From Tetradesmus obliquus (Eukaryota; Chlorophyta; Chlorophyceae; Sphaeropleales; Scenedesmaceae), in assembly GCA_030272155.1 (NCBI GenBank), contig CP126204.1:3339501-3403500 (forward strand): a stretch of DNA of 64,000 nt, in the 5' to 3' direction. Made by a program: the position numbers and the translations under genes. This document shows positions 50-64,000 of the stretch, piece after piece. The first letter of the stretch is position 1. Each line of letters begins with the position of its first letter. The notes below the pieces were generated by a model, which worked only from the letters and a program-made list of their open reading frames with translations, ran no database searches and had not been told where the DNA came from.

Positions 50-839
50 GCCCAGCAGGCGCTCATGGCAGCACAGCAGGCAGCAGCAGCAGCGCCGCCC
101 AAGCCTGTTGACGGCTACGTGCCCACGCGCTTCATCAGCGACGTCTTCTGCACTGCAGCACCAGCAACGCCATCGGCAGCAGGTGAGAACGCACGGCTGT
201 CACATCAACTTCTTGCACCCATATTTCTGCCGGCGCATGCTGCTTGCTGGCTGCCAATGCCGTTTGGTTGCGATTGGCGTCTGCAGCATGAATGTAACCA
301 AGCTTACAACCAGGGCTGATCTCATACTTAGTTAATCAGCTACAGCCTGTAGACGGCTACGTGCCCATGCGCTTCATCAGCGACGTCTTCTGCACTGCAG
401 CGCCGGCAGCGCCATCGGCAGCAGGTGAGAGCGCAGAATGGCGAAGCTTTAAGCATGCAATGCATGCAGTGCATGCAATGTACATGTATGCAATGGCCTA
501 CATGCATGCTGACTTCCACTCTGCAATGCACCATGTACTGACACGGTCGCGCTCTGCTGCCTCTGCTGCTGCTGCTGGCGCTGCTGCTGCAGCTGCCGCT
601 GCCACTAAAGCTGCGTCAGGTGGCCTTAGCCCGCTGTCTGGCTGCAGCCTGGCCTACCTAGCTCGTTCACTCTGCACCACAACATGCACTGACACGGACG
701 CGCTCTGCTCCTGCTGCTGCTGCTGCTGCTGCCGCCTCTGCAGCTGCACTGGGCGTCCTGAGCCGGCTGTCCGGCTGCAGCCTGGCGCACCTCATACCGG
801 CTTGACCATCCTGCACCAAAACGTACACTGACTCCATCA

Positions 840-887
<48 letters not shown>

Positions 888-1649
888 AGCTGCAGCGGCC
901 GGCCTGAGTCCGCTGTCTGGCTGCAGCCTGGCCTACTTGGGTGTGGACAGGGAGGAGGAGTTCAGCTGTGTGATGGGAGGCGGCCCTCACCTGGCTGTGC
1001 CCGAGCCGGAGATCGCTGCAGGAGACCTGCTGGCACTCACAACCAGGTAGGGTTCAGGGTTTTAAAATATAGGGTTTAGGGTTTAGGTTTGCACATGGGT
1101 GTGGACAGGGAGGAGGAGTTCAGCTGTTATGTGGCAGTCGGCCCTCGGCAGTGCCTGAACCGGAGATCGCTGCAAGAGACCTGCTGGCACTCACAACCAG
1201 GTAGGGTTTAGGGTTTTAAGTATGAGGGGTTAGGGTTTTGTGTTTGGGCATTGACAGGGAGGAGGAGTTCAGCTGTGTGATGGGAGGGGCCCTCACTTGA
1301 CTGTGCCTGAGCCAGAGTCGCTGCAGGAGACCTGCTGGCACTCACAACCAGGTAGGTTGAGAAGGTTCAGCCGCATGTTCTGTATGCTGTGGCATTGTGT
1401 GCTGCATGCAGGGCAGCATAGAGTTGCAGGGCCCCAGCTGCTCCTACAACAGCCACTTGCACAGGTTGTGTAGTCATTTTGCAGCAGTAGTGGCGCGTTG
1501 TTCAGGCTGCATTACTCTGTGATTGCCTGACTCTCATGCTGCTGCTGTTGCTGCTGCTGCAGCTGGGTGGAGAACAGTGGTGCTGTGGTCGAGTGTGTCG
1601 GAATAGCGGCGCCTTTTTTTGGGATGCATAAATATTTGCATTACCTGAC

Positions 1650-3344: not shown

Positions 3345-6300
3345 TCACACATGCTTGCACATCAGCTCACTGCCCTGGATCCACCTCACAGCCTCAGGCA
3401 GCCACACCGCCTGAGCCAGCTCAAGCGCCGACCACGCTGCTGGCATTTTGAACTTTTTTGAACGCCCAGCCCCGCCAAAATCCTGCAACCCACCAGCCTG
3501 CCGCAGCTGCATCACAGGCATCGCACCATCAGCATTCGCTGCACGGGCCGGCCCTGCAGAAGCACAAACTGCGGGCGCATTTTTGGCTGCCATCAAGTGC
3601 CAGTTGAGGTACTGCAGCATGGCTGGCGGCTCAGCTGCAGCCAGCCACTTGGACAGCCCCTCGCGCTCAAGATCTGCAACACCTGCGGGTGTATTATCAG
3701 CTGCAGACAGCGCATGCACCAGCTCGTCCACAGCTGGCTGACCTGCGAGTACAGAAGCCCACTGCACCGCCGGCGCCAGCTGCTGCTGGGCAGCCTGTTG
3801 CTGCAGCAGCTGCTCCAGGCTGCCTGCTGCATGTTGCACGTGGGTGCAGGCGTCCACAGGCGCCTGCAGCAGCTGCCGGATCTGCACTTGCTGCTGCATG
3901 CCTGCAAGCGCCTCCCCTCCTTTGCTGCTGCCGTTGCTACTGCTGGTGGTGGTAGCGTCGTGTGGAAGCAGCTGTGACAGCTGCCCCTCGCATGCTGCCA
4001 GCAGCGCTGGCTGCGGCAGCAGCGCAACGCCGAGCGCCTGGATTCTAAGGAAGCGGCCCCACACGTCTTGCGGGCACGCCTGCAAGCCCTTTGGTGCTGC
4101 TGCTGCTGGCTGCTCCACTTGCAGCAGCACCAGCCGCGTAGCGTTCATCGCAAAGATGTTGGGATGATTAGAGAGGCGCGTGCCCACCCATTCTGGCATG
4201 GGCCCTGTTACTAACGCGTAAGGTGCCGGCGGCCCTTGAGCCCAGTTTTTATGCTTGTTGAGTGTGTTATGCACCCAAGCTTGCCTCCCGTAGTGATCGT
4301 GCTGTACCATAGCCCTCAGGCGGTGGAACTCGCCAGACTTGCCACTGAGTGCGGCAGCAGGCGGGATCGGCATCTGCGCGTAGCTTGCGGCCTTGCCCGC
4401 TGCTGAGAATGCGAGCATGTAGGTGTCCTTGTCGCCCCACAGGATGTTGTAGATCACGTCTGAGTGTGTGGTGATCCACCACAGGTGCTCCAGCACATCT
4501 GCCCAGCACCACATGTACACAGCAAAGCCATGAACATCATAGTTTGAAGTTGTGAGAACATGCATGCTGCAAGAGCATAGCGCAAAGGGCGCGGAGGCGT
4601 TGATGTAGATGACAGCTGAAGAATGAGCATGTACTGCTTGAGCCATATGTAGCAGACCTATATGGACTCAGCTCGCATCCAACAAATCCTAGGCTTCAGA
4701 GATAAACATCTCTATACAGATTGATGTCGCACCCGCATGCCTCACGCGGTCCAGAAGCACATGGCCAGACTCTGCCATTCCAGGTATGGGTTGCGTGCCA
4801 GCTAGCAAGCCCTACATTGGTACAAGGGCAGGCATGCACACTGAGTCACACGCTTCACACCATGCGCCGCATTGTGCGAAAGCAATCACTGACCCATGAT
4901 GGGCTGCAACTTTATTGAACCAGGGTTGTGTTGCCGCAGTTGCTACCGCATGGCACGACTAGCGGCCAGTGCTGTGTCGCTGCTGCCGCTTCACTGCACA
5001 ACCAGTGCCATGTTGCTGCAGCAGCTACATTGCACTCACCAGGCTTGCGTTGCTGATGCCCAGTGCCTTCATAGCGTCCTGCACTGCCTGGCTGCCCCAG
5101 CGCCCGTATGCGATGTCACCCCAGTGCAGGTTGCCATGCAGCGTCATGTGAGGCCCGTTGAAGAGCTCCTCTGGGTTTATTAGCGGGTAGGTGTCTGAGT
5201 CCGCCATCAGCACCTGCAGCACATGGTGTACCAGGGTGGAATTAAGGTGGTGAAGGGGTGATAAGAAGGTGATAAGCAGGATGTATCGTGTCTGATGCAG
5301 TCAACAGCTATACACACCTGCAGCAGCTGGCACATTCATGGTTACATCCAGATACTTGCAAAGAGTATGGCCCAGGTGACCTGTTGCATACACACACTGC
5401 ACGGCCACTGCTACCTTGGCTTGCTACACCTTTCACCACGGCACAGTTTTTGCATACACCATACAACCACACATGACACGACATGGCTGTGCAATGTGCA
5501 TCACAGTCGCAGCTAGCAATAGCCGCCTGCTGCAGCACTCTACTAGCAAGGTCAGCAGTTGCGCGGTCTTTTACACAAGAGCAGCTGAATGTGCACAGCT
5601 GACCTGTTTGAAGCGGGAGTTATACAGGGCCCATGCTTTTGCCTCCCAAGGCTTCTTCTGAATCTTGTGCCCAGGGTGCTCTAGCACTGCCTGCCCTGCA
5701 CTGCAACACAATACCGTATGCTGTAACAGCATGTTAGAGATAAAGCGCTACTGCAGTACATCACATGACAGGTCTGAGTCTTGCCTCAAGCACCACCGCA
5801 GGGTGCTCCAGCACTGCCTGCCTGGCCCTGTACTGCAACACAACACAGCACAACACATATCAGGATCTAGGTCTTGCCCCAAGCACTAGCCCGTGGTGCT
5901 GCAGCATCGCCTGCCCAGCGCTGCACAGCTGACCCGCAGGTGATATCGGCATGTTACACACACACGCATGTGCAGCTGTCCTTATGAGAGGTGGGAAGTG
6001 CTGAGCACAGGCCACATGGCCCTAGGCATGGCTGCAGGCACACCTGTCGGGGGAAGCTACACGCGTGTGGACCACCTCTACCAAAGTTCCTGGCAAGGTT
6101 CTGGCAGACGCCTAGCTGCTTGTAGTCATAATCGGCTTGCACGCCGCTGCACAGTCTGGCTGCACTACTCACGGGTTGTGGTGCGCCGGGTACGGCACAG
6201 CTGACAGGTCCAAGCCATATACTGGGCCAAGCGTGGCGTTCATTGCTGCAATGGCTGCTGGGTCAACCTCTTTCTTCGAGCCGATGTAAGCTACCTCAGC

Positions 6301-7582
6301 TGGCAAAGTGCAGTTGAGCTTGTGCCTCAGTGTCTACAACAGAAGGAGCAGCAGCAGCAGGAGCAGAGCAGCAGCAGCCCCAGGCGTAACAAGGTCTTAG
6401 GCGGTTGGGGCAACATAGCACACGCCGTGTGGCACACGGCACATATGCACTAAAACAAAGTACATGCACGCTGCATGTAAAGTGATTGTAGTCAGGCAAT
6501 GTTGATCGAACTTTTCCCTCCGTCACCTGCAGCGGCGCTGCTGATGTGGTGCAGGGCGCTGTCAGCATCAGCATAGCCGACAACTCTTGTCAAAAGCGCT
6601 GGGGTCAGCAGCAGCAGCAGCAGCAGTATAACATGTGTACTCACCCACAGTGAGGCGGTGATGGCGCCCAGCATGCCTTTTCCGCCGCCGACATACACTA
6701 TGCCTCGTTCCTCAGGCAGGCTAGCGAGGCGCGCCTTGCGTTCCTGCAGCAGTAGCAGTCGGAGTGTGCATGCTGTCATATGACTCAGCATCAGTTGGCA
6801 CGAGTAAGCAGCAGCAGCAGCAAGAGTAGGATTATGACTCATCATGAGTCAGCATGATGCTGAGCAGCCACAGTAGTGGGGGTGCAGCAGAGCACCTGCC
6901 AGTGTTCGGCACGGGCACTTGAAGGCAGGCTTGGCTGCTGTTGAGATTCCAGCAGTGGTTCCACATGCCAGATTCAGCAGTGTTGCTGCGTGCACGTATC
7001 AGCAGCGGAACTGCACAAGGCCAGCAGACCAGAGTTGGACCATGCTGCTAGGCATCAGCTATGGCTGCAGGAACAGGCTGCAGGAACAAGCTGCAGGAAC
7101 CAGCTGCAGGAACAGGCTGCAGGAACAGGCTGCAGGAACATGCTGCTGCAGGAACAGGCTGCAGGAACAGGCTGCAGGAACAAGCTGCACGAACAGGCTG
7201 CCAGCCTTGCCTGAAATGCTGGTGTTGCCAGGTACTGTTTCAGCGCAGTCCTGTATGCAGCGATCAGTGGCTGCGATGGCTCCTCAGTGCTGCTGCTGCT
7301 GCTGCTGCTGCTGTTGCTGTGTGCTTTGTTGTAGCAGTATCCTGGCAGGGGACAGGTCTTCATTAAGCCCTGGAGTGCTACAACTGTCTGCTGCTGCAGC
7401 AGATGCGGCTTTGCCTGTTGTGCGTGGCCAGCGCTGCTGTTGGCTGACCAAGGCATGGGGGCAGCAGCGATGCTGATGAACAATAGCCTCATGAGGAAAA
7501 TTGTTGCCAGGGCTGCCAGGATCAGCAGTGTGCTTGGACGCAGCTGCGAGCTGTGGCCGTGGTGGTACTGCTGCTGCTTCAT
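3345..7582 (-). CDS. GT71-family (MNN1/MNN2-like) glycosyltransferase, type II membrane protein
   Basis: Eight minus-strand exons join in phase: 7582-7211, 6743-6645, 6333-6173, 6146-6076, 5686-5604, 5213-5040, 4811-4733 and 4498-3345, for 730 aa. Residues about 18-38 form a signal anchor (STLLILAALATIFLMRLLF), so the enzyme should sit in the Golgi with a lumenal catalytic domain. GT71 hallmarks appear in order: GIVYVGGGKGMLGA, KAWALYNSRF, ADSDTYPLINPEELF (DxD metal site, D267/D269), ESGHVLLDRVRH, then ILWGDKDTYMLAF (about 365-377). Such enzymes transfer mannose or another sugar from a nucleotide donor to glycoproteins. After about residue 480 there is an Ala/Gln-rich tail without known motif. 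Exon 1 seems to use a GC donor at 7210, the least certain junction. The start is the only ATG ahead of the anchor. The real sugar substrate cannot be read from sequence. Confidence 0.85.
5790..5930 (-). repeat. Acceptor-side partial copies of GT71 exon 5
   Basis: The block around the exon 5 acceptor (5668-5710) recurs in diverged form at about 5790-5840 and 5870-5930, upstream in gene sense. The copies include the acceptor region and the first bases of the exon, but not the conserved KAWALYNSRF part or its donor. Confidence 0.6.
7066..7200. repeat. 12-bp minisatellite (CTGCAGGAACAG)n
   Basis: About eleven copies of CTGCAGGAACAG with few changes and one 3-bp insertion lie in the first intron of the GT71 gene, just after the proposed GC donor. 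Read on the minus strand the unit stays open, so the end of exon 1 is ambiguous here. Confidence 0.85.
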
Positions 7583-8861: not shown

Positions 8862-11800
8862 ATGTCGATCAACGCCACCAAGCTGCGCCACGACCTGGCT
8901 CCAGCCTCCCCAGACGATTGGTGAGTGCTGTTGCTGCCTCATGTGGTGCCCACAAAACTCAGCATGGTGCACAGGCCTGGCTTGCTCTGCATGAGCTGCA
9001 GCCACACATACATGTATAAGAAGGAATTTACATGTTTGTACTGCTTGCATTCAACGCCAATGCACTGCTTTTTCAGGCTGCATCAGTGATGCTCGGTCCT
9101 GGTCCTGTGTGTCACAGCTGCAGCCACATATGCTGGGCGTCTACTTGTACAGCACTGCTGCTGCTGCTGCTGCTGCCTGCTCCAGGGGTTCGCAAACAGC
9201 ATTTGTATTGCTGCATTGCACGCTTTGTGAACCTGCAGGAAGAAGCTCACTGAGAAAGATGCATTCCAAGCACTGGAGCAGGTTAAGGGACAGGTGCGGC
9301 ACTGGGACAATGCAAATGGAATCATAAATTGTTGATTATGCAGGCCCTGTGGCACCAAACCGCATGCATGTCACAAAGTATGTCTGGTGCATTGCCTGTT
9401 GGCGGTTAGTGCACCCAGCCACTAAAGTGGATTCCCTGATCAGGCAGCAATTGCTGCTGCCAAAGCAGCTGAGTGGATATCTGATCACACAGCAGTTGCT
9501 GCTGCCAATGCATGTGGCAGCTGCTAAGCCGCTTCGCACAGGCAGCTGTGTTGTCCAATGCACATGTCCAGCCCGCGTCGGCCATGTTTGTGGTAGAACA
9601 GCACAGAGCAGTACAAACCCCACATGGATTAGGCACTGCTTGACTCACACTGGCAGCTGTTGTGTGCTGCGCCTCATGCACACCACAGCACATGCTGCAA
9701 AGTGTGTGTCTGAACTGCTGCTTCTGCTGCCGCCAGCTGCCGCGTCTAGTGGTGGTGCTGCTGCTTTTGCCGCTGTATCCCCCTCCCCTGCTGCTGCCTC
9801 CTCTTCTGTTACCTCCTTCTGTGCTTCTCCTGTTGCTGCTCAACTCGGCTGCTCTATCCTGCTGCTGCATCCCTTGCTGCTGCCTCTGCCCCCTTGTGCT
9901 GCTGTTGATCCACTGCTGCTACTGCTGCTGCTACTGCTGCTGCTAATGCTGCTGCTGATGCACCTTTCCTGCTGCTGCTGCTGCTGCCGCTGCCGCTGCC
10001 ATCACTGTTGCTGCAGCTGTTCATCAACAACAAGTGGGTCGACCCCAAGGCAGGCGGCAAGCTTGATGTAGTCGACCCGCGCACCAATGACGTGGTCAAG
10101 CAGATTGCTTCTGCCGAGCCTGATGACGTGGATGCTGCTGTCAAGGCTGCTAGGAAAGCGTTTGACGAAGGCCCCTGGCCGCGCATGGGAGGCAAGGTGG
10201 GTTGTTTCGGTTAGCAAAAATGCTGTTCCAGCAAGGGGGGGCACTAAAGAAATTCCAGGACATCATCACAAGAAACCCAAACGGGGTTCCCCCCCCCCCC
10301 CCCCCCGCACTCACCTCAAAAACTTGCGCCTGCAGGCGCCTGACTTGTTGATATGTTTATTGGTAACAGCAATAATGTATCTAGACGACTGCAGCTGTGT
10401 TAACATGTGGTTGCAGCAACCTGTCCGCCAGTTTGCCCGACCAAAAAAGTTGCTGCTGCTGGGATTTGACATGCGCCACACCAGTGATCAGTCGATTGTA
10501 AGCTGCTCCACATGTAAATAAGTGTTCACTAGCCTTGAAGAGGTGTGCAATGGTTTTATTATGATCTAAGCTTTCAGACAAGCTTATGTGTGTCTCAATC
10601 AGGCACCTGGCAAAAAAGTTAGGAAATCCAAGACACAAAGTTGACCAGGCCCCTGCCCCCCCCCCCCCCCAAAAAAAAACCACGCCGGATGGCCTTAAAA
10701 ACTTTGCAGTAGGCAATTGTTATGTTAAATAACATGTCCTAACGTTTTCAGGCGGAAATGAATGATGATGCTGTCAGTGGATGGAGTGGCCCCCCCCCTT
10801 GGTTCCAGCGTATATTCTGATGTACTGGTGAAGACGGTGCGGAAAAGCTGTTTGCTGGTGCGTTGTTGGGTTTTCTGAATGAACGCCATTTCAAAGTTCA
10901 GCGCATTTCGTGCTGACGTGGATGCTGCTGTCAAGGCTGCCCGCAAGGCTTTTGATGAGGGGCCCTGGCCGCGCATAGGGGGCAAGGTGGGTTTTACATA
11001 GCGGGTTGGTAACAACGTTTGTTGCAGCAGAAAGTAACTCAAATGCTGTGTGCTGTTGCAATTGGGTTTGTTTGTGGATTGTGTTGCTGGGCAGGATTTG
11101 ACTGAAAGTGCAACACATTTGCCGGGCCTGCTGTCAAAGCAAGGCTGCTGATTCTCTGCGCAACCACCTGCATTGATTCTGGCCAGGTTGGCCTGCTGCC
11201 TGCATGCCAGCCTGGACAATACTTACAGGCACCATCCCACTGCTGGTGTGACAACGGTGTTTGCTTCTGACCTGTGTTGTTGTGTGGCCCGCGGCAGGCT
11301 GCTGAGCAAGCTGGCTGACCTTATGCAGGCCAACTTCATGCTGCTGGCGCTGCTGGGGAGCCCGGGACACACATAGCAACACGCCTGCCATGTTTTTATC
11401 ACTCACAGGGTCGCGGGCGCCTGCTGAGCAAGCTGGCTGACCTCATGGAGGCCAACCTGGCGCAGCTAGAGAGCTGAACAGAAGTAGAATTTGATTTCTG
11501 CGACTGCCTGTTGTAACATTTCCCCTGTGTAGGGGCGCGGCAGGCTGCTCAGCAAGCTGGCTGACCTGATGTCGGCCCAGCTGACGCAGCTGTCGCTGCT
11601 GGCGAGGCTGGATGCACTGAAACATGTTCTCTGTCTGCATCCGCATGCATGTCTGTTCCTGAGCAGGGCCGCGGCAGGCTGCTGTCCAAGCTGGCTGACC
11701 TGATGGAGGAGCATCTGACGAAGCTGGCGCTGCTGGAGAGCCTGGATGCAGGCAAGCCGCTCAGCCAGAGCATGCTCAAGGAGATCCCTCTGTGCATCGA

Positions 11801-12681
11801 CAACTTCAGATACTTTGCTGCGTGAGCAGTGGCTCTATACTTCTTTGTTTTTTGGGTGTGTCAGAGCATGCTCAAGGAGATCCCGCTGTGTATCGACAAC
11901 TTCTGCTACTTTGCCGGGTGAGCAGTGGCTCTATACTTCTTTATTCTTTTGGCTGTGTCAGAGCATGCTCAAGGAGATCCCGCTGTGCATTGACAACTTC
12001 CGCTGCTTTGCTGGGTGAGCAGTGGTGCGACATTACTGCAAAGTGCTGCTCAGCCAGAACATGCTCATGGAGATCCTGCTGTGCATCGACAACTTCAGAT
12101 ACTTTGCCGGGTGAGCAGCTGTGGTTTGGGTGTAACCAATGAATACACGTTGCAGGGTAGCCAATCTACAGTGCAGTCAGCCCCGGGGTGAAGCTGCAAG
12201 GTCTGAGCCTGCTCAATGGATCGATGCTGCTGTACATTGACAGCTTCCGCAACTGGCTGGGTCAGGGAGTTGTAACATTGATCTTCATCATCTGCTGCTG
12301 CTGCTGCAGGTGGGTTGACAAGCTCACCGGCAAGGTGCTGCCCACAAACGTATATGGCAAGACTCCCTCCTGCTGCTGCTGCTGCTGCTGCTGCAGGTGG
12401 GCTGACAAGCTCACTGGCAAGGTGTTGCCCACTGACACGCCCCACCACGCCTACACACTGATTGAGCCGTTGGGAGTGGTGGCGGCCATCACACCATGGA
12501 ACTTCCCACTCATGGGTGAGAACTTGAGCGTGAAGTATTTTGTTCACATTCATGCTGCTGGAGCTTCCCATTTATGAGGTTTTGTTCACTCAAACAGTGG
12601 CTTGTATTGACTGCTGAGCTGCAGCCTGCAGATTGAAAGCTGTGGTGGTTTCTGCCGCCCCATGCTGACTTTGCCTGGATT

Positions 12682-12722
<41 letters not shown>

Positions 12723-12928
12723 CCACCGCCGCTGTTGCAGAGTTCACCTGGAAGGTCACACCCACACTGGCAGCAGGCAACACAGTGGTCAACTGTGATT
12801 CCAAAGACAGCAAAAATGCCGCCTGCTGCTGCTGCCGCTCACCTGCAGAGTTCACATGGAAGGTCACACCTGCACTGGGAGCAGGCAACTCCGTGGTCAT
12901 CAAGGTCCGCGACAAAAGTGAACTAATA

Positions 12929-12976
<48 letters not shown>

Positions 12977-13068
12977 GCTCACCTGCAGAGTTCACCTGGA
13001 AGGTCACACCTGCACTGGCGGCGGGCAACACAGTGGTCATCAAGGTCCGCGACAAAAGTGAACTAATG

Positions 13069-13145
<77 letters not shown>

Positions 13146-14051
13146 GGTAACCTGCAGAGTTCACCTGGAAGGTCACCCCAGCGCTGGCAGCAGGCAACAC
13201 GGTTGTCATCAAGGTGTCAAAGGAGACTTCACTGACTGCGCTGCTCATGGGTGACCTGGCAATCCAGGCTGGGCTGCCGCCTGGCGTGCTCAACATCCTC
13301 ACGGGGCCTGGCACGTCACTAGGCGACGCCCTGGTGGAGCACCCTATGGTGGACAAGGTGGGCGGGGTCGGAAGTTTGCCATGAACTTTGAGACTTAGTG
13401 TGATGTTTGAAGTTCTTGACTGGGCCAGGCACCAGCCTGGGTGACGCTGTTGTGGATCACCGGCTGGTGGACAAGGTGGGCGGGGTGTGAAGCAGGGTGA
13501 GAACTTTGGGCCTGGCTGTGAACTTTTAACCTGGCAATCCAGGCGGGGCTGCCGCCCGACGTGCTCCACATTGGGCTTCAATGTGAAGTTTGATGTCCTT
13601 GGTGCCCGGCGTGCTCAACATCCTGAAGGGGCCGGGCACATCGCTGGGTGACGCCCTGGTGGAGCACCCGATGGTGGACAAGGTGCGGGGCGTGTTGGGT
13701 TTGTCTAAGCTCTTTGCCATTCACTGTCAACTATGAGCGGAACTTTCATTGTATGTAGTGTGCTCAGCATCCTGACTGGGCCAGGCACATCGCTGGGTGA
13801 CGCCCTTGTGGAGCACCCGATGGTGGACAAGGCGGGCAGAGTAGAGATCACATCGATTGCTTGCAATGGTGTAAAGTGTAATGCTATTTGCTGAAGACTT
13901 CTCATTACTTTGCTGCTTTGCTGCTGCTCCTGCTGCTGCTGCTCCTGCTGCTGCTGCTGCTGCTGCCAGGTCACCTTTACCGGCAGCACCTCTGTGGGCC
14001 GCGGCGTGGGTCAGACTGTTTGAGCTGCATCATGTTCTGCCTCACGCATTC

Positions 14052-14088
<37 letters not shown>

Positions 14089-14290: not shown

Positions 14291-14325
<35 letters not shown>

Positions 14326-50050: not shown

Positions 50051-50154
50051 CTCATGACCTTCCAGGTTGGCCGCATCGACCATGCGGAGGCCAACCCCGA
50101 GAACAGCCTGCTGCCTGATGAGCCAGCCTCACAAAAGTGCATGAGATCATGCCA

Positions 50155-50194: not shown

Positions 50195-53100
50195 CATGAC
50201 CTTGCAGGTAGGCCGCATCGACCATGCAGAGGCCAACCCCGAGAACAGCCTGCTGCCTGGCGAGGCCAGTTTGACGCAGATGAGCGACTACTGGACTGCA
50301 CGTGGCATGAAGCTGGAGGAGGGCGTGGCGCTGCTGGGCATCCACGCACTGATGGAGGTGTGTTATATGATTATTTTTGGTATTGTTATCATTATATTAT
50401 TATTGTTATTTCTATCTATACTGTTAAATTAACTATCTTTTATATTATCATAATTAGATTATTTCATACTATTGTTAGTGTTGCTGTTATCATTGTTATC
50501 GTTTTTATCATTGTTTTAGGTTGCTTTTTGATTGTGAGAACGATTTTGGATGTTTATATATGACTTTATTTTCATCATGTTTTCTTTGTTATCGTTGATA
50601 AGGACGCATTAATTACAACGATATATTTGTTCATTAATCATTCCATGTCATGCTGCTGCCATGCTGCAGAACAAAGGCTGCATGGTGACCAGCAATGCCA
50701 GGAGGTCCGCCGCATATGGCCGCAAGCTGATGCACACGTGAGCGGCACCGCCAGCCACAGCAGCATGTACACATTGTAGTTGTTACTGCTGCTGCTGCAG
50801 CAGCTGTTGAAGCTGCATGCAATGGCATCGTGTTTTCAGAGCAGACACCGAGACTCTTCACAATGCTTGGACACAAGGTGTGCTGTAAGGCTGTGGGTAG
50901 CCATGCCAACACTACAAACAACAGCGTTTGTAACCCGTTGCTGCTGCTTCTGGTGCATGCACCTTATGATGTTGCTTCAGCTACGCTAAGGGTGCCAACA
51001 TCAGCACCTGCAACCCACCTGCTGCTGCTGCTGCTGCTGCTGCTGCTTCTGCTGCCTGCATTTGCGGTGTGCTGTTGTTGCAGCTACGCCAAGGGTGCCA
51101 ACATCAGCACCTGCAACCCAACTGCTGCTGTTGCTGCTCCTGCTTTCCTTGCCGCTGCTGCTGCTGCTGCTGCCTGCATTTGGGATGTGCTGTTGCGACT
51201 ATGCCTAGGGTGCCAACATCAGCACCTGCAACCCAACTGCTGCTGCTGCTGCTGCTTTCGTTGCTGCTGCTGCTGCTGCTGCTTCTGCTGCCTGCATTTG
51301 CGGTGTGCTGTTGCAGCTACGCCAAGGGTGCCAACATCAGCACCTGCAACCCAACTGCTGCTGCGGCTGCTTTCGTTGCTGCTGCTGCTGCTGCTTCTGC
51401 TGCCTGCATTTGCGGTGTGCTGTTGCAGCTACGCCAAGGGTGCCAACATCAGCACCTGCAACCCAACTGCTGCTGCTGCTGCTTTCGTTGCTGCTGCTGC
51501 TGCTGCTTCTGCTGCCTGCATTTGCGGTGTGCTGTTGCAGCTACGCCAAGGGTGCCAACATCAGCACCTGCAACCCAACTGCTGCTGCTGCTGCTGCTGC
51601 TTTCGTTGCTGCTGCTGCTGCTGCTGCTTCTGCTGCCTGCATTTGCGGTGTGCTGTTGCAGCTACGCCAAGGGTGCCAACATCAGCACCTGCAACCCCTA
51701 CGGTGATGGCGTGGACAACCCGGCAGGCAAGAAGCCGGTCAAGGGCAGCTGCCCGCGGCTGCAGATGCACAAGCTGGACACGCAGTTCTACCTAGACCTG
51801 GCCACACCCACAGGTGTGTTCTATACCATGTTACAACACTGTCACAAAGGCATGGTTGATGTTTGCTAAGTGTACCTGGACCTGGCAACACCCACAGGTG
51901 TGTTCTATACCATGTTACAACACTGTCACAAAGGCATGGTTGATGTTTGCTAAGTGTACCTGGACCTGGCAACACCCACAGGTGAGATGTCAGGGGTAGT
52001 GTGGCATCTGGACTACCAGGGTGTGGTGTGACGTAGCTGCAGATGCACAAGCTGGACACGCAGTTTTACCTGGACCTGGCAACACCCACAGGTGAGTCTT
52101 TAATACACTGTTACTGCTGTTACGGCGCTACCTAGGCAGAGGGCAGCTGCAAGCGGCTGCAGATGCACAAGCTGGACACGCAGCTCTACCTAGACCTGGC
52201 CGCACCCACAGGTGAGCAGTGTTATAACACTGTTAAACAATTCAAAACATTACCTAGGCAAAGGGCACCTGCCTGCGGCTGCAGATGCACAAGCTGGACA
52301 CGCAGCTCTACCTAGACCTGGCCACACCCACAGGTGAGCTGTTGTAACATGTTATAACACCGTCACAAAGGCATGGTAGATGTTTGGGGGCGAACCACAA
52401 GCCACCGACAAGCTGGACACGCAATTCTACCTAGACCTGGCAACGCCCACATGTGAGTTGTCAGGGGGTATTGTAGCACTTGGACTAACAGGGTGATGTG
52501 TGATGTGGCTGCAGATGCGCAAGCTCGACACGCAGTTCTACCTAGACCTGGCAACGCCAACAGCTGGTGACCTGTCGCCCTGTTGCTGCTGCTGCTGCTG
52601 CCGCTGCTGCAACCTGCCGTCCTTCTTACACTGTGGCTGCTGCTGATGATGCTGATGCTGATGCTGATGCTGCTGCTATCATGCAGTGTCCATGTTTGAT
52701 GTGAAGCTGGACGTTGGGCTCAAGGACCTGGATGAGGACACGTATTGCATCAACCTTCCGCCCTTCTTACACTGTGGCTGATGCTGCTGTTGCTGCTATC
52801 ATGCAGTGTCCATGTTTGATGTGAAGCTGGACGTTGGGCTGAAGGACTTGGATGAAGAAACTTATCGCGTCAACCTCAAGGACATAACCTGCTCCTTTTC
52901 CAGCGAGGAGTTCAGGAAGGTGGCCATCAAGGAGGCATCAGATGGTGTGTGGTAAAACGCGTGGTCAAACATTGGTCAAACATGCAGTCAAACATAACAT
53001 ACCAGTCCAAGCCACTGACATGACGATGGAACTAGGAACCTAGCCATCTGCTATCAGTTTGGCCACTTGGCCAGCGTCTTCCAGCCCACCTAAGGCACTA

Positions 53101-53161: not shown

Positions 53162-54205
53162 AGAGCGCTCCGGCGACATCGAGCACTGGCCAGACGGCGG
53201 CTGGCTGGTGCATAACCTCACAGGCGTCTTCTGGTCAACCAACAACTGCCAGGGCACTGCCAAAGACAGCAAGACACGCGCCAACTGCAACCACATGGTG
53301 TACTGGCCTTACACAAGGCTGGATGGCTTCATGGCTGCTGCTGTGCAGTCTCCGGAGGAGCTTGAAGATGCTAAGCCTGTTGTGGATCGGGTGGCGGCTT
53401 CGGTAAAGGACTACATGAACGGCAGTGCTGCCAAGTGGTATTTGGACTATGCCAAAGCGTACGCAAAGATGATGAGCGTCGGTGAGTGTCGATGCAGCTG
53501 TTGCAAGGAGCGCTAGAAGTAGCTACTTGCTTCCTGTGTGCATTAGCTGCTCCAACTGCGGCATTTGGCTACAGGAAGCATAACGCTGCCAGCGTTGCTG
53601 GTCTTGCACTTGCACAGACGGGGCAACAGCAAAGCTTGCAGCAAGTGCAGCGTGCAGGGCTGTGCCGCTCACACACACGGTCTGCAGTGCTGCCGGATTG
53701 CAGAGTTCATAGGCTACTATTTCATTCTGCTTCCTCTCTTCCTTCGTAAAATTGTCCTCACACTCGTGATGCCACTGTGTGCATGCTGCTGCTATTGCTG
53801 CTGCTGCTGCAGCCGCCGACTGGTCGCCGAAGGCTGGCTTCCCCACCTTCAGCGAGTGCACAGCATCATTCATCATGCCAACAGTGAATCCACTGCTACT
53901 GCTGCTGCTGCTGCCGTCTGCCGTGTGCTGCTGCAGCCGCCGATTGGTCGCCCAAGGCTGGCTTCCCCACTTTCAACGAATGCACAGCATACGTCAAAAC
54001 AGGCGCCAAGGATGAGTCAGGCTACTGCAAAGCCTGCACCAGGCCGGCCACTTGGGAGACCAATGCAGCAAAGGCACGCACTGCACTTGCAGCAAGCAAG
54101 AGGAGCCCTGGCCCCTGCCCTAAGGACTGTGTGTGTGCAAGTGCAGCAGCTGGCAGGGACTTTGATTGGAAGGCCATGTCGTGCGGGGTGGTGTGCGTGA
54201 ATTAG
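47901..54205 (+). CDS. Secreted haem peroxidase (plant-type superfamily), complete
   Basis: Ten exons join in phase to 531 aa: 47901-47972, 48089-48164, 48682-48798, 49177-49412, 50208-50357, 50670-50737, 51662-51813, 52807-52944, 53164-53481 and 53937-54205. Residues 1-22 are a signal peptide (MLCLLLLLSLAPLASVTA). The distal haem site is IIRAGYHDA with Arg62 and His66, followed by GSIKCGGADAS. The proximal site is EEGVALLGIHALM with His213. The end of the core (SAAKWYLDYAKAYAKMM) resembles the last helix of ascorbate peroxidases. Such enzymes reduce H2O2 while oxidising a small donor or wall polymer. After the core comes a Cys-rich extension of about 90 residues (CTAYVKTGAKDESGYCKACT, CPKDCVCA), not usual for the family. 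A possible alternative last exon ending at 54841 (CDPNNVVDAALQCRGMYPDE) could replace its end. Introns hold large arrays of exon 7 fragments. Confidence 0.9.
48520..48580 (+). repeat. Acceptor-side copy of peroxidase exon 3
   Basis: Bases around 48534-48575 repeat the start of exon 3 (KRMA.MIIRA), ahead of the intact exon at 48682-48798; the copy stops just before the distal His codon. Confidence 0.75.
49590..49672 (+). repeat. Donor-side copy of peroxidase exon 4
   Basis: The last 80 bases of exon 4 (VCAMAVTSTLAGASGRQAPN) are repeated with few changes. The following intron start (GTTGACTTTGACCAGGCGTT) is repeated too, so the unit clearly spans the junction. Confidence 0.9.
49884..50135 (+). 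repeat. Two acceptor-side copies of peroxidase exon 5
   Basis: VGRIDHAEANPE-like fragments start near 49886 and 50068, the second after a (CTG)n tract, ahead of the intact exon at 50208-50357. Neither includes the proximal His. Confidence 0.85.
49990..50048 (+). repeat. (CTG)n tract in the intron before peroxidase exon 5
   Basis: About 19 CTG units lead to the acceptor of the second exon 5 decoy. Confidence 0.95.
50360..50645. other. AT-rich island inside a peroxidase intron
   Basis: About 285 bases are dominated by T and A with recurring TTGTTATC and ATTATTATTG words. Composition is strikingly unlike the GC-rich surroundings. No gene or end repeat is visible; it starts right after the donor of exon 5 and ends about 25 bases before the acceptor of exon 6. 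Confidence 0.8.
50979..51661 (+). repeat. Six acceptor-side copies of peroxidase exon 7, period about 112 bp
   Basis: CTACGCCAAGGGTGCCAACATCAGC with its acceptor begins near 50981, 51084, 51198, 51317, 51429 and 51541, before the intact copy at 51662. Each unit also holds a CTG tract and CTGCCTGCATTTGCGGTGTG. The third copy has a mutated acceptor and a stop codon. Confidence 0.95.
51870..52562 (+). repeat. Seven donor-side copies of the end of peroxidase exon 7
   Basis: CTAGACCTGGCMACACCCACAG with a GTGAG/GTGTG donor ends near 51897, 51981, 52091, 52211, 52333, 52452 and 52562. Most include the preceding ATGCACAAGCTGGACACGCA. The first two units are virtually identical to the intact end and its intron start. 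Confidence 0.95.
52687..52750 (+). repeat. Acceptor-side copy of peroxidase exon 8
   Basis: SMFDVKLDVGLKDLDEDTY with its ATGCAG acceptor precedes the intact exon (52807-52944) by 121 bases. Confidence 0.9.
53101..53161 (+). repeat. (CTG)n tract ending in the acceptor of peroxidase exon 9
   Basis: About 20 CTG units run directly into the CAG at 53161-53163. Confidence 0.95.
53812..53870 (+). repeat. Acceptor-side copy of peroxidase exon 10
   Basis: ADWSPKAGFPTFSECTA repeats the start of the last exon (intact from 53937), after a CTG tract and CTGCAG acceptor. Confidence 0.9.
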
Positions 54206-57257: not shown

Positions 57258-57439
57258 GCTGCTGCTGCTGCAGTCTTCCAGCAGCTTGAGGTGGACTACT
57301 GCATTCAACGGCCGCGTCAGGACATCTGGCCCACGCGCGCACAGCAGGTGCCCGTGGTGCGCATGTTTGGCGTGAACGACGCAGGTGCGGGGATCCTAGA
57401 TTAGACTGGCTACCAGCAGCCTTTATAAGCACAGCAGCA

Positions 57440-57477
<38 letters not shown>

Positions 57478-60400
57478 TGCCCGTGGTGCGCATGTTCGGC
57501 GTGAACCACGCAGGTGCGGCACGATGCTTGCAGGATGGTGGACCCACAGCAGGATCAGCAGGCAGGGGCAGCAGCAACAGATGTGTCTGCTGTAGTGCTC
57601 TCAGCTGTGATGAAGCACAATGCCCGCTTGAGGGACACAATGCCGTCATCACGTGCTATGAATGATTGAGCTTAGCACAGCAGGTGCCCGTGGTTCGCTT
57701 GTTCGGCATGAGCGGAGCAGGCGCAGCAAATCAGCTTGGCACGCGCGGTGTCTGATAGTTGCATACGCGCGGTGTCTGATAGTTGCATGGAAGGATGCAT
57801 AGGCTAGCTGCAGCTGCAGTGCCCGCTGCGCAGAAGCAGCTGTGCCTCCATTCTGCTGGGCCGCAGTCATGGTGTCTGCACAGGAGACAAAAAGCAGCGG
57901 CATTGGCATCGACAGCAGCAAAACTACGCCCCAGTGCAGCCGCTGCATGTGTTGGAATCTAGTCGTGCTCACTGCTGCTGCTGCTGCCGCTGCTGCTGCT
58001 GCTGCTGCTGGCTGCTGCAGGCAACAGTGTGTGCGTGTTTGTGCACGGCTTTGAGCCCTACTTCTACTGCGACTGCCCGCACGGCTGGGGGCCCGAGGAC
58101 TGCCAGGAGCTGTGCAACGCGCTGCGGGTGCGTTCTGTAACATGATGGTTGTTTGTCTTTACTTGTCTCTGGGTTTCTGGAGCTTTCTGGAGCTTTCAGG
58201 TCATTGGGGTGGCTTTATTGGGATGGCTGGGCCTGCGGATTGCCAGGAGCGCTGCAACGCACTTTGGGGCTGTTGCACAGGAATGGTGGGAAGCTATAGC
58301 GCTGTAGGGTGCCAGCCACTACAGGCCCAGTGGGTCTGCACAGCTGCAGGCTTGAGGACTGCCAGGAGCACCATTGCAATGCTGGTTTGTGTTTTCAAGC
58401 GCTTTCTCTGACACTGGCGTCCTTAGGGTTGAGGCCTGCACAGCAGCGGCTGTGAGGACTGCCAGGAGCTTGCAAAATCACGTGGGGTGATTGTAAGCAT
58501 TTTTCTCTTGTATCTGCTTACAGGACCACGGGCGCCTCAAAGACAAGGGCCCTGGGGTGCCGCCTGTGGCTCGCGTGGAGCTGGTTCATATGACAAACAA
58601 TAGCGGGGCCCACTGAGCTGACATGCTGCTCCACCTATGCTTGCAAGACCACCCCCAGCTGAAAGCAGGGTCCTCGCGTGCCGCCTTTGGTGTTTGCCCT
58701 CCCTCACCTCGGTCAGTCGCACACACAGCACTGCCTTCAACTGTTGTGTGCTTGCCTGGCCGTCTGATACCTGCTTGCAGGACCACGGGCGCCTCAAAGA
58801 CAAGGGCCCTGGGGTGCCCCCAGTGGCGCGCGTGGAGCTGGTGCAGAAACCGCTACACTCGATCATACTGGCCGGTTTTGCTGATGCATGCAGAGACCCC
58901 CGAAAAAAACACTCACGCTTGACTCAGTTGCGCTTGCCCGCTGCTATCATGCTTGTTTGCAGGACCACGGGCGCCTCAAAGACAAGGGCCCTGGGGTACC
59001 ACCAGTGGCGCGTGTGGAGCTGGTGCAGAAGACAAACCTGTGGGGCTATCAGGGAGGGCTGTCGCGACCCTACCTGAAGATCGTGTGTGCGCTGCCAAAC
59101 CTGGTGGCGCCCGCGCGAGGTGAGAGGGGCGGAGAGCATATGTTTGTTGACAAGCAAGAGAAGTTTTGAGGATTGCGACTCAACGTCAGTTTGGTTGATA
59201 ACCACACACTGTGCCTCTACTAGCGCTCTGCTCTCTTAATAACCTTCGGCCTGCACCGCGAGTGGGCCTGCAAGACGCGACAGAATCATAGCTTGGTTAT
59301 CATACAGGGCGTAAGCATACATGTATGTATCAACCAGTGACGTATGTGCTGTGCGCGCTGGAGGACGGCCTGCGCTGCGTGGACCGCGCCCTGCCATCCC
59401 TTGCCAGCTACGAGAGCAACCGCCTCATCGACACATCCTTGACAGCCGCACTGATCATAGTATACATTTTCATTGTGCTTTGCTGCTGTGCAGGCGCCCT
59501 GGAGGACGGCATGCGCTGTGGTGACCGCGCCCTGCCGTCCCTCGCCAGCTACGAGAGCAACTTGACACATCCTTGACAGCCGCACTGATCATACAATACT
59601 GATTCATTGCTACTCATTGCTACGTCAATGCTACTTGTTTATTGTGCTTTGCTGCTGTGCAGGCGCCCTGGAGGACGGCATGCGCTGTGGTGACCGCGCC
59701 CTGCCGTCTCTTGCCAGCTATGAGAGCAACGTGTTGTACGCGCTGCGCTTCATGGTGGACACCAACATGGGCGGGGGGCAGTGGCTGGAGATACCGGCAG
59801 GTGCGGTACGGGGCCTTTGCCGATAGGTTTGGTGGGTTGCGCGCATTCGGTGTTGCATGCGCTGCGCTCGACTGTGGCATGGTGACAGGCGCCGGGCAGT
59901 GGCTGGAGTTCCCCGCAGTGTGACATGTCGCTGTTGTCTGCACGTACGTTGCTTCAGCAGTTGCTCTGCGTGCTGCCATGTCTTGTTGAAGGCGAGATTT
60001 GCATGGTTTATTTGATGCTTTCAGTTTGCTTGACTGGGCCTTGCACTGCACAGCTGCACCTGCAGTGCGGATACCTTGGCACATGTCATTCATGATGTTA
60101 CTTACTTCGTCACGCGCCGCTGCTGCTGCTGCTGCTGCAGGCAAGTGGCGTGCTGCAGCAGGCCCTGAAGGCGGCGCGGGGCGCGCCAGCTGGTGCCAGG
60201 TGGAGGCATCTGCTATAATCACTGCTGCCGCCTACGGTGCCATGGTGTGAAACAGCCTCACCAAAACACTGACGCCTGTGCTGCTGATGCTGCTGCTGCT
60301 GCTGTTGATGTTGCTGCTGCAGGCAAGTGGCGTGCTGCAGCCGGCCCTGAAGGCGGCGCGGGGCGCGCCAGCTGGTGCCAGGTGGAGGCATCTGCTATGG

Positions 60401-61436
60401 TTACTGCTGTTGCCTACGGTGCCATGGCGTGAAGCAGCCTCACCAACACACTGACGCCTGTGCTGCTGATGCTGTTGATGTTGATGTTGCTGCTGTAGGC
60501 AAGTGGCGGGCTGCAGCAGGCCCTGAAGGCGGCGCGGGGCGTGCCAGCTGGTGCCAGGTGGAGGCCCACTGCGTGTGGAGCGACATCATTGCACACGCGC
60601 CTGAAGGTGAGCAGCGGCAGCAGCAGCTGCAGCAGCAGCAGCGCTGACATTGAAGCGTAGACGCTGTCTGACAGTGTGGAATCGACAGCACGTTGCGTCA
60701 GCACAGCAGCAACAGCAGCAGCAAGTATGTTGCGGTTGATCTCTTTGCTTAGGCACCACCAGCAGGCCGTGCCAGCTGGTGTCAGGTGGAGGCGCACTGC
60801 GTGTGGAGCGACATCACCGCACACGCGCCTTGTGCATTGCGCCGCTGCGCGCCCGGTCACCTGTGCAACTCACATGCGGTTTGATGGTTCTGCTGCATCT
60901 GGTGCAGGCGAGTGGTCGCGCATCGCGCCGCTGCGCGTTTTGTCCTTTGACATCGAGTGTGCGGGCCGCAAAGGCCACTTCCCCGAGCCGCAGCAAGACC
61001 CCGTGATCCAGATTGCGAGCATGGTCACTGTGCTTGGAGAGGCCAAGCCGCGTGTGAAGAACATCTTGACGCTGGGCAGCTGCGCGGCGATCGTGGGCGC
61101 GGAGGTAGGCGGCTGGCTGTGTGTGTTTCAAGACGACTGGGACGCGTATGGTTTGTTGCTGTGTTGTGCAACAGTACGCGTGCTGAGCTGGGGGCTTCAA
61201 CGTATGTGATGTGGGGCGGCGGAGCAGCAGGGTGTCTTTGTGCTGCTGGTGGGTTGGGCCGGGGTGCTCAGAGTTGCCAAGCCGTGCGAGTAAAACATCA
61301 TCATGCTGGGCAGCCGGGCAGCGCTTGTATGCACGGAGACGAGGGGAAGTGCCTGTTGCTGCGTATGTGTGCATGGCTGTGTGCGCATATGGTTTCAGAG
61401 CTGGGCGCTGCTGTCTTGAGGTGTCTCTTTTGTCAA

Positions 61437-61473
<37 letters not shown>

Positions 61474-64000
61474 GTCAGGTGATGTCGTTTGAGAGCGAGG
61501 CGGAGATGCTCAATCGCTGGACCAGCCTGGTGCTGGAGACAGACCCAGACATCATCACAGGTGAGGCTGTGAGAAACAGAAATATAAGGCTATGACTTCA
61601 TTGCTTTGACCTGCTGCACCTGTTTCAGCGCCACGCTGCTTCACTGCCTTGTGTCGCCTTGTGTTGCCGCCATGCCTGACGCTAGGCTTGAGTTGTGTAT
61701 TACAGGGTGCAACACAGGGTGCGCAACACAACACAGTGTGCCAGTATGCTATCATGTGCTCTTCTACTTGCCCCCGCAGGCTACAACATCAACAATTTTG
61801 ACCTGCCCTACCTGTTTGAGCGAGCCAAGGCGCTGCGCGTGGACGGCGACGCACACCAGTGGGGGCGCATCCGGCACAGGTGCGGGAGGCCTCCAGCATA
61901 GAAGCATACATCAGTGTGTCCAGCCAGCCAGCATGCCTTTGGCTTAATGACGACAGCTGTCATGTTCATGCGCGGCGCTCCTCCCTACAGCCGTGCCTGC
62001 GCTGACCTATCTGTTCCAAAACTCTCCCTCTCTTCCTGACCCGTTGTGTGTTGCTCTTCTCAGTGCTTCCCGCAACCGTGTGCATGCTTCCCGCAGCCTC
62101 ACTGCTACTCTCACTGCTTCCAGCAGCCGTGTGCACGGCACCACCTTCAGCTGCATGGCGCTGTCATGCACGATTCGCTCACTGCTCGCACCAGCTGACT
62201 TTTGTATCACTGCTGCTCCCTGCCTGCAGCCGCGTGCGCATGCGCGACACCACCTTCAGCAGCAAGGCGTACGGCACGCACGAGTACAAGGACCTCACCA
62301 TCGAGGGCCGCGTGCAGTTTGACGTGTACATGGCGCTGCAGCGAGACCACAAGCTCAGCAGTTACACACTCAACGCGGTGAGCTCACTCGAGTAATATGT
62401 TTTTTGTAATTTTTGACATGTCAGCTATTATCCGAATGCAGTGATTGCGACAAGCTCCAGCTTCTCACGGCAGTGAGTGCTTGAATATGTGTAGCCATAT
62501 GCTGGGTTTCAGCAGTTGTCCAGTTTGACGTGTACATGGCGCTGCAGCGAGACCACAACCTGTTCAGCTACACGCTCAACGCGGTGCGTGACACTGTGGC
62601 TGATATTGCTGTTGATGCTGCTTGCAGTGAGCGCAACAAGCTCTGCAGCTGCAAGTTTGAAAGCGACATACGCGCTGATACCATTCTCATGTGTGTTATT
62701 ACCCATGCAGGTTCGGCGCACTTTCTTGGGGAGCAGAAAGAGGACGTGCACCACTCAGCCATCAGCGACCTGCAGAATGGCAACGCGGAGACGCGCCGCC
62801 GCCTGGCTGCTTCTGACACATTTGTATGCTTTTCTGCGTACCTTGTGTTCTTGCAGGTGTCGGCACGCGTCCTGGGCGAGCAAAAAGAGGACTTGCATCA
62901 CTCAGCCGTCGGACTTGCCGAACGGCAAGGCGGAGGCCAACATGTTGTGGCTGCTTCTGACAATTACGTATGTTTGTGTACCGTGTCTCTCTGCAGGTGT
63001 CGGCGCAGTTTCTAGGAGAGCAGAAAGAGGACGTGCACCACTCAGCTATCAGTGACCTGCAAAACGGCAACGCGGAGACGCCCCGCCGCCTGGCTGCTTC
63101 TGACACATATGTATGCTTTTACGCATACCTTGTGTTTTTGCAGGTGTCGGCACACTTGACCTGGGCGAGCAGAAGGAGGACGTGCACCACTCCGCCATCA
63201 GCGACCTGCAGAACGGCAACGGCAGACACTCATATCCAACATTCCTGACTTTGTGCAATTGTGCTTGGCTGCCTGTCTTCCTGTGCAGGTGTCGGCGCAC
63301 TTCCTAGGCGAGCAGAAGGAGGACGTGCACCACTCAGCAATCTCTGACCTGCAGAACGGCAACGCGGAGACGCGCCGCCGCCTGGCTGTGTACTGCCTGA
63401 AGGACGCGTACCTGCCGCAGCGGCTGCTGGACAAGCTGATGTACATGTACAACCACATCGAGATGGCCAGGGTTACAGGGGTGCCTGCGAGCTACCTGCT
63501 GACCAGGTGCGCATGGATGTCAACACTTTCAAGCGTGTTTTATGACAATATCACTTGATTTCTGGCGTGCAAGTCACTGGTAGGATATGAATGCCTATTC
63601 TTCGATATTGGGTTGACTCACAGCGAGTGTGCGCAGCGGCTGCTGGACAAGCTGATGTACATGTACAACCACATCGAGATGGCCAGGGTCACAGGCGTGC
63701 CTGCGAGCTACCTGCTGACCAGGTGCGCATGATCGCCAACACTTGCTCAGACGTGCAGCCATCTGCTGCGTGTTCACCGCTGCTCCGCTCATGTTGAAAT
63801 CGCTGCTACTTCGCACCTTTTTCATACCATATGCAGGGGCCAGTCTGTCAAGGTGTTCAGCCAGCTGCTGCTTAAGTCACCATACACGCACTGCTGCTGA
63901 TGTTCAGCTGTTCACATGCTGCCTCATGCCATGCAGGACCATTCCATCAAGGTGTTCAGCCGGCTGCTGCGGCATTTAGCTATACCTCACTATATGCACA
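56439..64000 (+). CDS. POLD1: DNA polymerase delta catalytic subunit, N-terminal and exonuclease domains (continues past window)
   Basis: Eleven exons join in phase to about 529 aa: 56439-56661, 57274-57384, 58021-58127, 58963-59119, 59663-59800, 60499-60606, 60908-61104, 61479-61560, 61780-61879, 62230-62377 and 63289-63506. The next exon ([12 protein letters not shown]) has two candidate copies near 63837 and 63937, and the true one may lie outside. The protein replicates the lagging strand and proofreads. The N-terminus has a basic PPAKR motif and an acidic stretch, then [14 protein letters not shown]. Proofreading motifs: Exo I FDIEC (Asp296, Glu298), Exo [12 protein letters not shown] (Asp382) and Exo [12 protein letters not shown] (Asp496), each 19-20 residues before the human positions. 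All exonuclease acids are present. Polymerase motifs and the iron-sulfur cluster should lie downstream. Exon fragments flank most exons. Confidence 0.95.
57466..57725 (+). repeat. Two donor-side copies of POLD1 exon 2
   Basis: CAGGTGCCCGTGGTKCGC...GGCGTGAAC with the old donor recurs at 57476-57513 and 57681-57722. The intact exon is 57274-57384. Confidence 0.85.
58205..58475 (+). repeat. Three donor-side copies of POLD1 exon 3 end
   Basis: GAGGACTGCCAGGAGC-type fragments lie near 58233, 58352 and 58453, after the intact exon (58021-58127). They are shorter and more decayed than elsewhere. Confidence 0.7.
58525..58860 (+). repeat. Two acceptor-side copies of POLD1 exon 4
   Basis: GACCACGGGCGCCTCAAAGA and following bases start at 58525 and 58782, before the intact exon at 58963-59119. 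The 5' halves are nearly identical; both lose similarity after the VELVQK codons. Confidence 0.9.
59350..59925 (+). repeat. Copies around POLD1 exon 5
   Basis: Acceptor-side copies ([20 protein letters not shown]) start near 59358 and 59494; the intact exon is 59663-59800. A donor-side fragment ([10 protein letters not shown]) lies at about 59886-59920. Confidence 0.9.
60139..60835 (+). repeat. Copies around POLD1 exon 6
   Basis: Acceptor-side copies ([20 protein letters not shown]) start at 60141 and 60324 after CTG tracts; the intact exon is 60499-60606. A donor-side copy ([19 protein letters not shown]) lies at about 60766-60830. This region is also a 180-bp-period tandem repeat. Confidence 0.9.
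61180..61350 (+). repeat. Decayed donor-side copy of POLD1 exon 7
   Basis: GAGGCCAAGCCGCGTGTGAAGAACATC is echoed near 61274-61310 (GAGTTGCCAAGCCGTGCGAG...AAAACATCATC), with several indels. Confidence 0.6.
62505..62590 (+). repeat. Donor-side copy of POLD1 exon 10
   Basis: CAGTTTGACGTGTACATGGC...CTCAACGCGGTG repeats the end of exon 10 (62230-62377) with few changes ([20 protein letters not shown]). Confidence 0.9.
62705..63240 (+). repeat. Four acceptor-side copies of POLD1 exon 11
   Basis: Copies of [20 protein letters not shown] start near 62710, 62857, 62998 and 63144, with a period of about 145 bp, before the intact exon (63289-63506). They end near the RRRLA codons, before the catalytic Exo III Asp. 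Confidence 0.95.
63625..63980 (+). repeat. Donor-side copy of POLD1 exon 11 and two copies of the next exon start
   Basis: CTGCTGGACAAGCTGATGTA...CTGACCAG with GTGCGC donor recurs at about 63640-63721. ATGCAG acceptors at 63836 and 63936 are followed by similar KVFSQLL-type codons; neither shows a clear donor. Confidence 0.8.

Follow-up and report, generated by a model that had tools for sequence, protein, structure and literature searches.

Half-exon copies beside intact exons in a region of Tetradesmus obliquus chromosome C14

One-sided exon copies in three modeled genes

The window analyzed here is a stretch of 64,000 nucleotides from chromosome C14 of the freshwater green alga Tetradesmus obliquus (positions 3339501-3403500; the genome counts 104,662,953 bases in 17 contigs), and three of its genes, POLD1 (from 56.4 kb; annotated protein OEZ86_008668), ALDH (8862-18677), and a heme peroxidase gene, have introns that harbor partial copies of the exons they adjoin, hereafter called decoys. 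The three genes were modeled with a purpose-written splice-aware aligner. The 24 exons of POLD1 give P0001 letter for letter, the 13 exons of ALDH align to P0121 without gaps, and the 10 exons of the peroxidase align to the guide P0241 with one gap, a second guide (P0242) leading to a different start. A 27-nt POLD1 exon (59494-59520) was dropped before all counts, being part of a decoy, which leaves 23 exons for this gene and 46 exons with 86 splice junctions for the modeled set.

Comparison of each exon with its own two adjoining introns returned 107 matches, 105 of them direct and 2 inverted, and half-exon copies are borne by 43 of the 86 junctions at E ≤ 1e-5 (20/43 acceptors and 23/43 donors). 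Positions and geometry can be read directly from these matches. Indeed, among the 105 direct matches, 51 copies lying upstream of their exon begin at most 6 nt from its 5' edge and 37 copies lying downstream stop at most 6 nt from its 3' edge, so that 88 are found on the expected edge and none on the opposite one. The 17 matches that make no edge contact comprise 15 in the expected half of the exon and 2 in the wrong half, and none of the 105 amounts to a second exon complete with its two splice sites (totals of decoys vary with the cut-off, being 105, 88, 86, or 83 in the different analyses). An earlier note, made from the letters of the window alone, had proposed a single rule for all seven multi-exon genes, by which copies before an exon carry the acceptor with the 5' part of the exon, copies after it carry the 3' part with the donor, and no intact second exon exists. 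All 88 edge-anchored matches obey this rule and the absence of a second intact exon stands for the three modeled genes; its extension to all seven genes could not be confirmed.

In ALDH, whose exons lie on the + strand like those of the other two genes, exon 3 (10017-10196) has a donor half at 10911-10986, and exon 4 (11667-11821) is preceded by acceptor halves at 11287-11365, 11409-11474, and 11533-11616 and followed by donor halves at 11862-11917, 11959-12014, and 12045-12110. An acceptor half (12310-12345) precedes exon 5 (12397-12515). Exon 6 (13158-13357) combines acceptor halves at 12741-12791, 12849-12906, and 12989-13046 with donor halves at 13419-13475, 13604-13682, and 13760-13831 and an inner fragment at 13529-13571; exon 7 (14325-14465) has acceptor halves at 13970-14015, 14088-14133, and 14219-14267, donor halves at 14538-14607, 14667-14749, and 14987-15047, and a fragment at 14837-14894. 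Further along the gene, exon 8 (15349-15470) has an acceptor half at 15143-15169 and a donor half at 15511-15570, exon 9 (16172-16262) acceptor halves at 15863-15891 and 16006-16042, and exon 10 (16489-16659) donor halves at 16807-16919 and 17024-17124. Acceptor halves of exon 11 (17747-17885) occupy 17288-17354, 17429-17500, and 17609-17679, with a fragment at 17172-17230, and exon 12 (18135-18211) is followed by a donor half at 18307-18342.

Peroxidase exon 7 (51662-51813) stands between six acceptor halves within 50981-51576 and seven donor halves within 51873-52563. Elsewhere in this gene, a fragment from near the 5' edge of exon 3 (48682-48798), covering exon bases 10-40, lies at 48539-48569, a donor half of exon 4 (49177-49412) at 49587-49671, and acceptor halves of exon 5 (50208-50357) at 49885-49943 and 50066-50126. 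Exons 8 (52807-52944) and 10 (53937-54205, with the stop codon) each have an acceptor half, at 52687-52756 and 53813-53866, respectively.

In POLD1, donor halves of exon 2 (57274-57384) lie at 57471-57513 and 57675-57720, and a donor-side fragment of exon 3 (58021-58127), at 58229-58263, stops 4 nt short of the edge. Acceptor halves of exon 4 (58963-59119) are found at 58524-58598 and 58781-58848. Exon 5 (59663-59800) has acceptor halves at 59353-59420 and 59494-59564 and a donor-side half at 59850-59918; exon 6 (60499-60606) has acceptor halves at 60141-60207 and 60323-60389 and a donor-side fragment lacking the donor at 60762-60830. A donor-side half of exon 7 (60908-61104) lies at 61264-61338 and a donor half of exon 10 (62230-62377) at 62518-62583. 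Exon 11 (63289-63506) is preceded by acceptor halves at 62710-62809, 62857-62935, 62997-63096, and 63144-63221 and followed by a donor half at 63632-63722, and the region 63837-63971 holds acceptor halves (63837-63876 and 63936-63971) of exon 12, which itself lies beyond the window end, in L009.

The second acceptor half of POLD1 exon 5 contains the 27-nt exon mentioned above, which adds to the annotated protein a decoy-derived repeat of GALEDGMRC. This repeat is missing in the five displayed relatives (P0002, P0004, P0005, P0006, and P0008; P0012 has no coverage there), and the annotated gene model is therefore probably wrong at this place. At the acceptors of the three genes, a CTG-type repeat of at least five units occurs in the last 60 intron nucleotides in 19 of 43 cases. 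CTG/CAG microhomology is not enriched at the exon breakpoints of the decoys, a 4-mer being present within 5 nt in 26 of 66 distinct breakpoints against 22.4 expected.

Occurrence in the rest of the window and on other chromosomes

Comparison of the window with itself yields 134 direct repeats separated by less than 4 kb, more than chance would give; direct repeats at larger distances number 4 and inverted ones 11, 9 of the latter belonging to one element. When the window was scanned without annotation, all 4 wrong-half matches stemmed from decoys used as query, and another 4 matches fell in mid-segment, 2 of these belonging to a minus-strand segment of doubtful status. The earlier note had the rule operate on both strands. 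The evidence for the minus strand within the window is one clear predicted exon (46262-46432), followed downstream, at 46004-46104, by a single donor-side half, and more is found on other chromosomes. No decoys are present at the minus-strand coding segments 4320-4520 and 5037-5222 (weak mannosyltransferase matches).

An annotation-free sample of 240 kb was taken from C1, C2, C3, C4, C5, C8, and C11, at places chosen by hand at round coordinates. Right-side matches number 86 in this sample and wrong-side ones, which in large numbers would have spoken against the rule of the earlier note, number 2; 18 others span nearly the whole query segment, 1 is inverted, and decoys accompany 39 of the 127 exons predicted. 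In the C14 region (94 kb), the same holds for 38 of the 56 predicted segments, some of which are decoys themselves, with 119 right-side, 2 wrong-side, 4 mid-segment, and 8 near-whole matches. Repeat density, taken as the fraction of the bases close to coding segments that fall within near direct repeats, was lowest in C2, C3, and C4 (about 0.03-0.04), intermediate in C1, C5, C8, and C11 (0.10-0.30), and highest on C14 (0.38-0.56). Decoys occur in every chromosome sample examined, at very different density.

An ALDH paralogue on C11, read in part, has four donor halves of its exon 3 and two acceptor halves of its exon 4, with four weak inverted matches besides. In the phytochelatin synthase gene, also read in part and with boundaries set by eye, two exons have one acceptor half each. 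Variants of phytochelatin synthase published for Scenedesmus acutus are reported to retain introns. Use of decoys was rejected as their source, since the corresponding intron appears to begin with Val-Arg and no decoy is needed.

Two other features of the window stand apart from the genes discussed here. An open reading frame at 24448-25563 with a sub-threshold match to Phage_integrase (26 bits, cut-off 27.1) is followed at 26223-28132 by a pair of inverted arrays whose units measure 144 bp, and together they look like a recombinase-bearing mobile element. At 37282-37479, a perfect 39-bp tandem repeat in five copies looks much younger than the exon arrays.

Decay, geometry, and origin of the decoys

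Alignment of 86 exon-decoy pairs places mismatches at 103/1732, 104/1725, and 322/1716 of first, second, and third codon positions. Stop codons in the decoys number 8, their indels shift the frame in 13 cases and preserve it in 3, and, with outgroup majority defining the conserved residue, it is held by the exon at 80 of 86 differences in POLD1 (by the decoy at 2) and at 76 of 90 in ALDH (decoy, 10). Coding constraint on the decoys is disfavored as source of the third-position excess by the stops, the frameshifts, and the equal rates at positions 1 and 2. Their splice dinucleotides are retained in 70 of 83 cases (AG 41/48, GT 29/35), and a change of 6% per site would keep about 42 AG and 31 GT. 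Because retention is close to this neutral expectation, selection appears to act neither for nor against the decoy splice sites. Judged by these patterns, the decoys are now decaying as neutral sequence, and we predict that splicing passes over them; the nested or stepwise splicing that the earlier note considered gains no support.

The one-sidedness is a geometric outcome of in-place duplication. A tandem duplication would repeat a segment where it stands, the copy still joined to the remaining exon staying intact, so that an event across the acceptor would leave a half upstream and an event across the donor a half downstream. In a sequence-level simulation, POLD1 exons were set in random introns and subjected to 4000 events of each kind. 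Tandem duplication produced 1416 right-edge, 0 wrong-edge, and 0 no-edge copies besides 310 of the whole exon, and dispersed copying 592 right-edge, 448 wrong-edge, 76 no-edge, and 230 whole-exon copies. It follows from this simulation, in which tandem duplications alone yield no wrong-edge copy, that one-sidedness needs neither a splicing rule nor exon definition. The same geometry is displayed by a four-copy array over the last coding bases, the stop codon, and the 3' flank of POLD1 (L009, about 6882-7469), which involves no splice site, and this array weakens a splicing-specific origin of the decoys.

We therefore favor, with a probability of roughly 0.6, an origin of the decoys in recurrent, short tandem duplications straddling the splice junction, which then decayed neutrally and some of which would have joined diverged alleles. 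The duplicated segments would mostly measure about 85-290 bp. Since the exon breakpoints differ among decoys of one exon (76, 81, 100, and 100 nt for POLD1 exon 11), the events would have recurred. The tandem-duplication origin that the earlier note had put forward is upheld by the side rule, by the simulation, and by the intron spacers that are homologous, by the test applied, in 18 of 83 neighboring copy pairs, and is left wanting by the spacers of the other 65.

These unmatched spacers (30 of 34 on the donor side) lead a series of observations that speak against such an origin. They do so because plain duplication predicts matching spacers, and some of the pairs concerned have exon parts 95-99% identical with few silent changes, as in the donor half of POLD1 exon 17, where almost no silent change accompanies an unrelated spacer, a case that also strains the allelic component of our reading. 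The residual similarity of flanks, described below, is weak. Whole-exon copies, 310 of 1726 in the simulation, are 0 of 105 in the three genes, and near-whole copies are depleted, only 1 of 43 sides exceeding 0.67 against a simulated mean of 11.5. The two matches in the wrong half, 17 nt each and both from POLD1 exon 18, qualify the statement in the earlier note that the rule has no clear exception, which otherwise agrees with the lack of any match at an opposite edge. Finally, masking of the exon parts leaves 16 arrays that touch a junction and 2 confined to the intron (sorted by hand), a skew that duplication at random positions would make uncommon: the junction share expected from position is 0.37 at present intron lengths and 0.63 at half that length, and P for 16 of 18 ranges from 7e-6 to 0.017, reaching 0.094 if introns were 0.4 as long. 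Before masking, all but 2 of the 50 arrays (48) reach an exon edge at face value, but exon parts remain recognizable for longer. A modest preference for junctions is thus likely but not secure. As for copies of a whole or nearly whole exon, they were probably weeded out by selection, or avoided by the mechanism, since the simulation makes whole ones common and the three genes have none.

Unmatched spacers could be understood if part of the duplications had joined two diverged alleles, through a slipped template switch or an unequal exchange between homologues; the exon part of the copy would then resemble the other allele and the intron part would go unmatched. On the donor side, identity is about 0.87 in the exon, 0.90 and 0.83 at +1 and +2, and about 0.3 from +7, and on the acceptor side it declines gradually (profiles calculated with the recent acceptor array of peroxidase exon 7 excluded). 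Even below the homology cut, flanks resemble each other slightly more than unrelated flanks do (p 0.0015 for donors and 0.0068 for acceptors), as would be the case for very diverged homologues. Two spacers searched in the genome each matched only themselves (common words and simple repeats skipped), which argues against mobile or templated filler. Furthermore, mismatches between decoys amount to 285/1361 at third positions versus 110/1386 and 93/1368 at the others, and with one decoy per side 165 third-position changes are observed for 96.6 expected, an excess beyond that of a neutral decoy facing an evolving exon. Unmatched spacers and silent excess together resemble a comparison of diverged alleles. 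The ALDH of the window differs from P0121, of the OEZ85 series, at 17 of 518 residues, and its decoys hold the state common to P0121 and the covering outgroups at sites 424, 429, and 449; the OEZ85 and OEZ86 series are assumed to be the two haplotypes. The strain is described as extensively heterozygous, possibly through hybridization, in the accessible part of PMC12633428. From the spacers, the silent excess, the differences with OEZ85, and this heterozygosity, we infer that many events joined two alleles. Since the variant patterns of the decoys do not split into two clean types, a pair of source alleles would not be enough.

A bolder version, which we hold as tentative and do not expect to prevail, regards each decoy as a fossil allele left at a splice junction by slipped exchange between diverged homologues. 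The introns would then archive the exons of haplotypes since lost, and exchange between diverged alleles, focused on junctions, would be a main engine of intron growth in this genome.

It is unlikely that exon edges and splice sites were instead copied into the nearby intron by a process targeted to the junction, for instance through RNA-DNA hybrids or through repair where splicing or transcription complexes pause. This process would suit the end of donor-side identity at the splice consensus, the small number of intron-only arrays after masking (2 versus 16), and the several decoys with unlike exon breakpoints at one junction; it is at odds with the POLD1 stop-codon array, with the 18 homologous spacer pairs and the faint similarity of unmatched flanks, and with a strict side rule that indicates duplication in place. 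A further doubtful scenario is that of old tandem duplications whose exon parts were kept alike by gene conversion as spacers decayed. Conversion tracts would stop where homology stops, exon parts are far more similar than spacers, and near-identical exon parts beside unrelated spacers, as at POLD1 exon 17, could be accounted for. By our reasoning, however, the third-position excess that conversion can give should not go beyond about twofold, and the observed values are 3.1-fold between exon and decoy and 2.8-fold between decoys, the 165 changes against 96.6 pointing the same way. We consider it very improbable that decoys are selected for use, be it in splicing regulation or as splice sites, alternative or nested: the start of one of them (59494-59520) is indeed counted as an exon by the gene model from which the annotated POLD1 protein P0001 derives, but the resulting repeat is absent from the five displayed relatives, GT and AG are lost at a nearly neutral rate, and stops and frameshifts are present. 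Two last readings, copy-and-paste of local DNA to dispersed sites when breaks are repaired and an artefact of the assembly, can practically be set aside, for all that spacers can be genome-unique (two searched), as 448 of 1040 simulated one-edge copies fall on the wrong edge versus 0 of 88 observed and the many substitutions between copies are unlike assembly duplication.

The genome is reportedly the subject of a 2024 paper by Biondi et al. in Algal Research, said to present strain UTEX 3031 as a phased, gapless diploid assembly. If, as we suppose, the window comes from that assembly, the arrays are unlikely to stem from assembly error.

Significance and relation to known systems

A genome whose true exons adjoin several near-identical half copies, splice sites intact, offers a natural experiment on exon definition, in which the spliceosome must single out the whole exon and local splice-site sequence gives it little guidance. 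The introns also preserve a record of junction-spanning duplications. According to the available part of PMC5966456, introns of T. obliquus average 462 bp versus 230-302 bp in the four other algae tabulated there, and the decoy arrays may partly account for this length. Gene finders are at risk, as the decoy-derived repeat in annotated POLD1 illustrates.

A literature search limited to titles and the starts of abstracts, with most subscription papers outside its reach, brought up no description of this half-exon architecture, which is a new and extreme variant of internal tandem duplication. As in internal tandem gene duplication, partial gene copies are direct and in place, 105 of 107 matches being direct and next to the source exon (adjoining introns searched) and spacers homologous in 18 of 83 pairs; the differences are that events recur at half of the modeled junctions, are cut at the exon edge, and in the three genes never include a whole exon. 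In tandem exon duplication, which gives rise to mutually exclusive exons, exon sequence is likewise repeated in neighboring introns in the same orientation, but the copies described here reach one exon edge at most and none of the 105 is whole. Recursive, or stepwise, splicing relies on donors or acceptors stacked inside one intron, whereas the decoy sites appear free of constraint. In the AGGT model, introns are gained through tandem genomic duplication involving splice sites. This mode of gain, treated in the accessible part of PMC4974935, shares with our arrays a tandem duplication that includes splice sites, and differs in that the copies here lie inside existing introns. Finally, introners, as presented in the available part of PMC9860276, also add splice-site-bearing intron sequence to many genes; similar elements would then be expected at unrelated loci, whereas the two spacers searched here matched only themselves.

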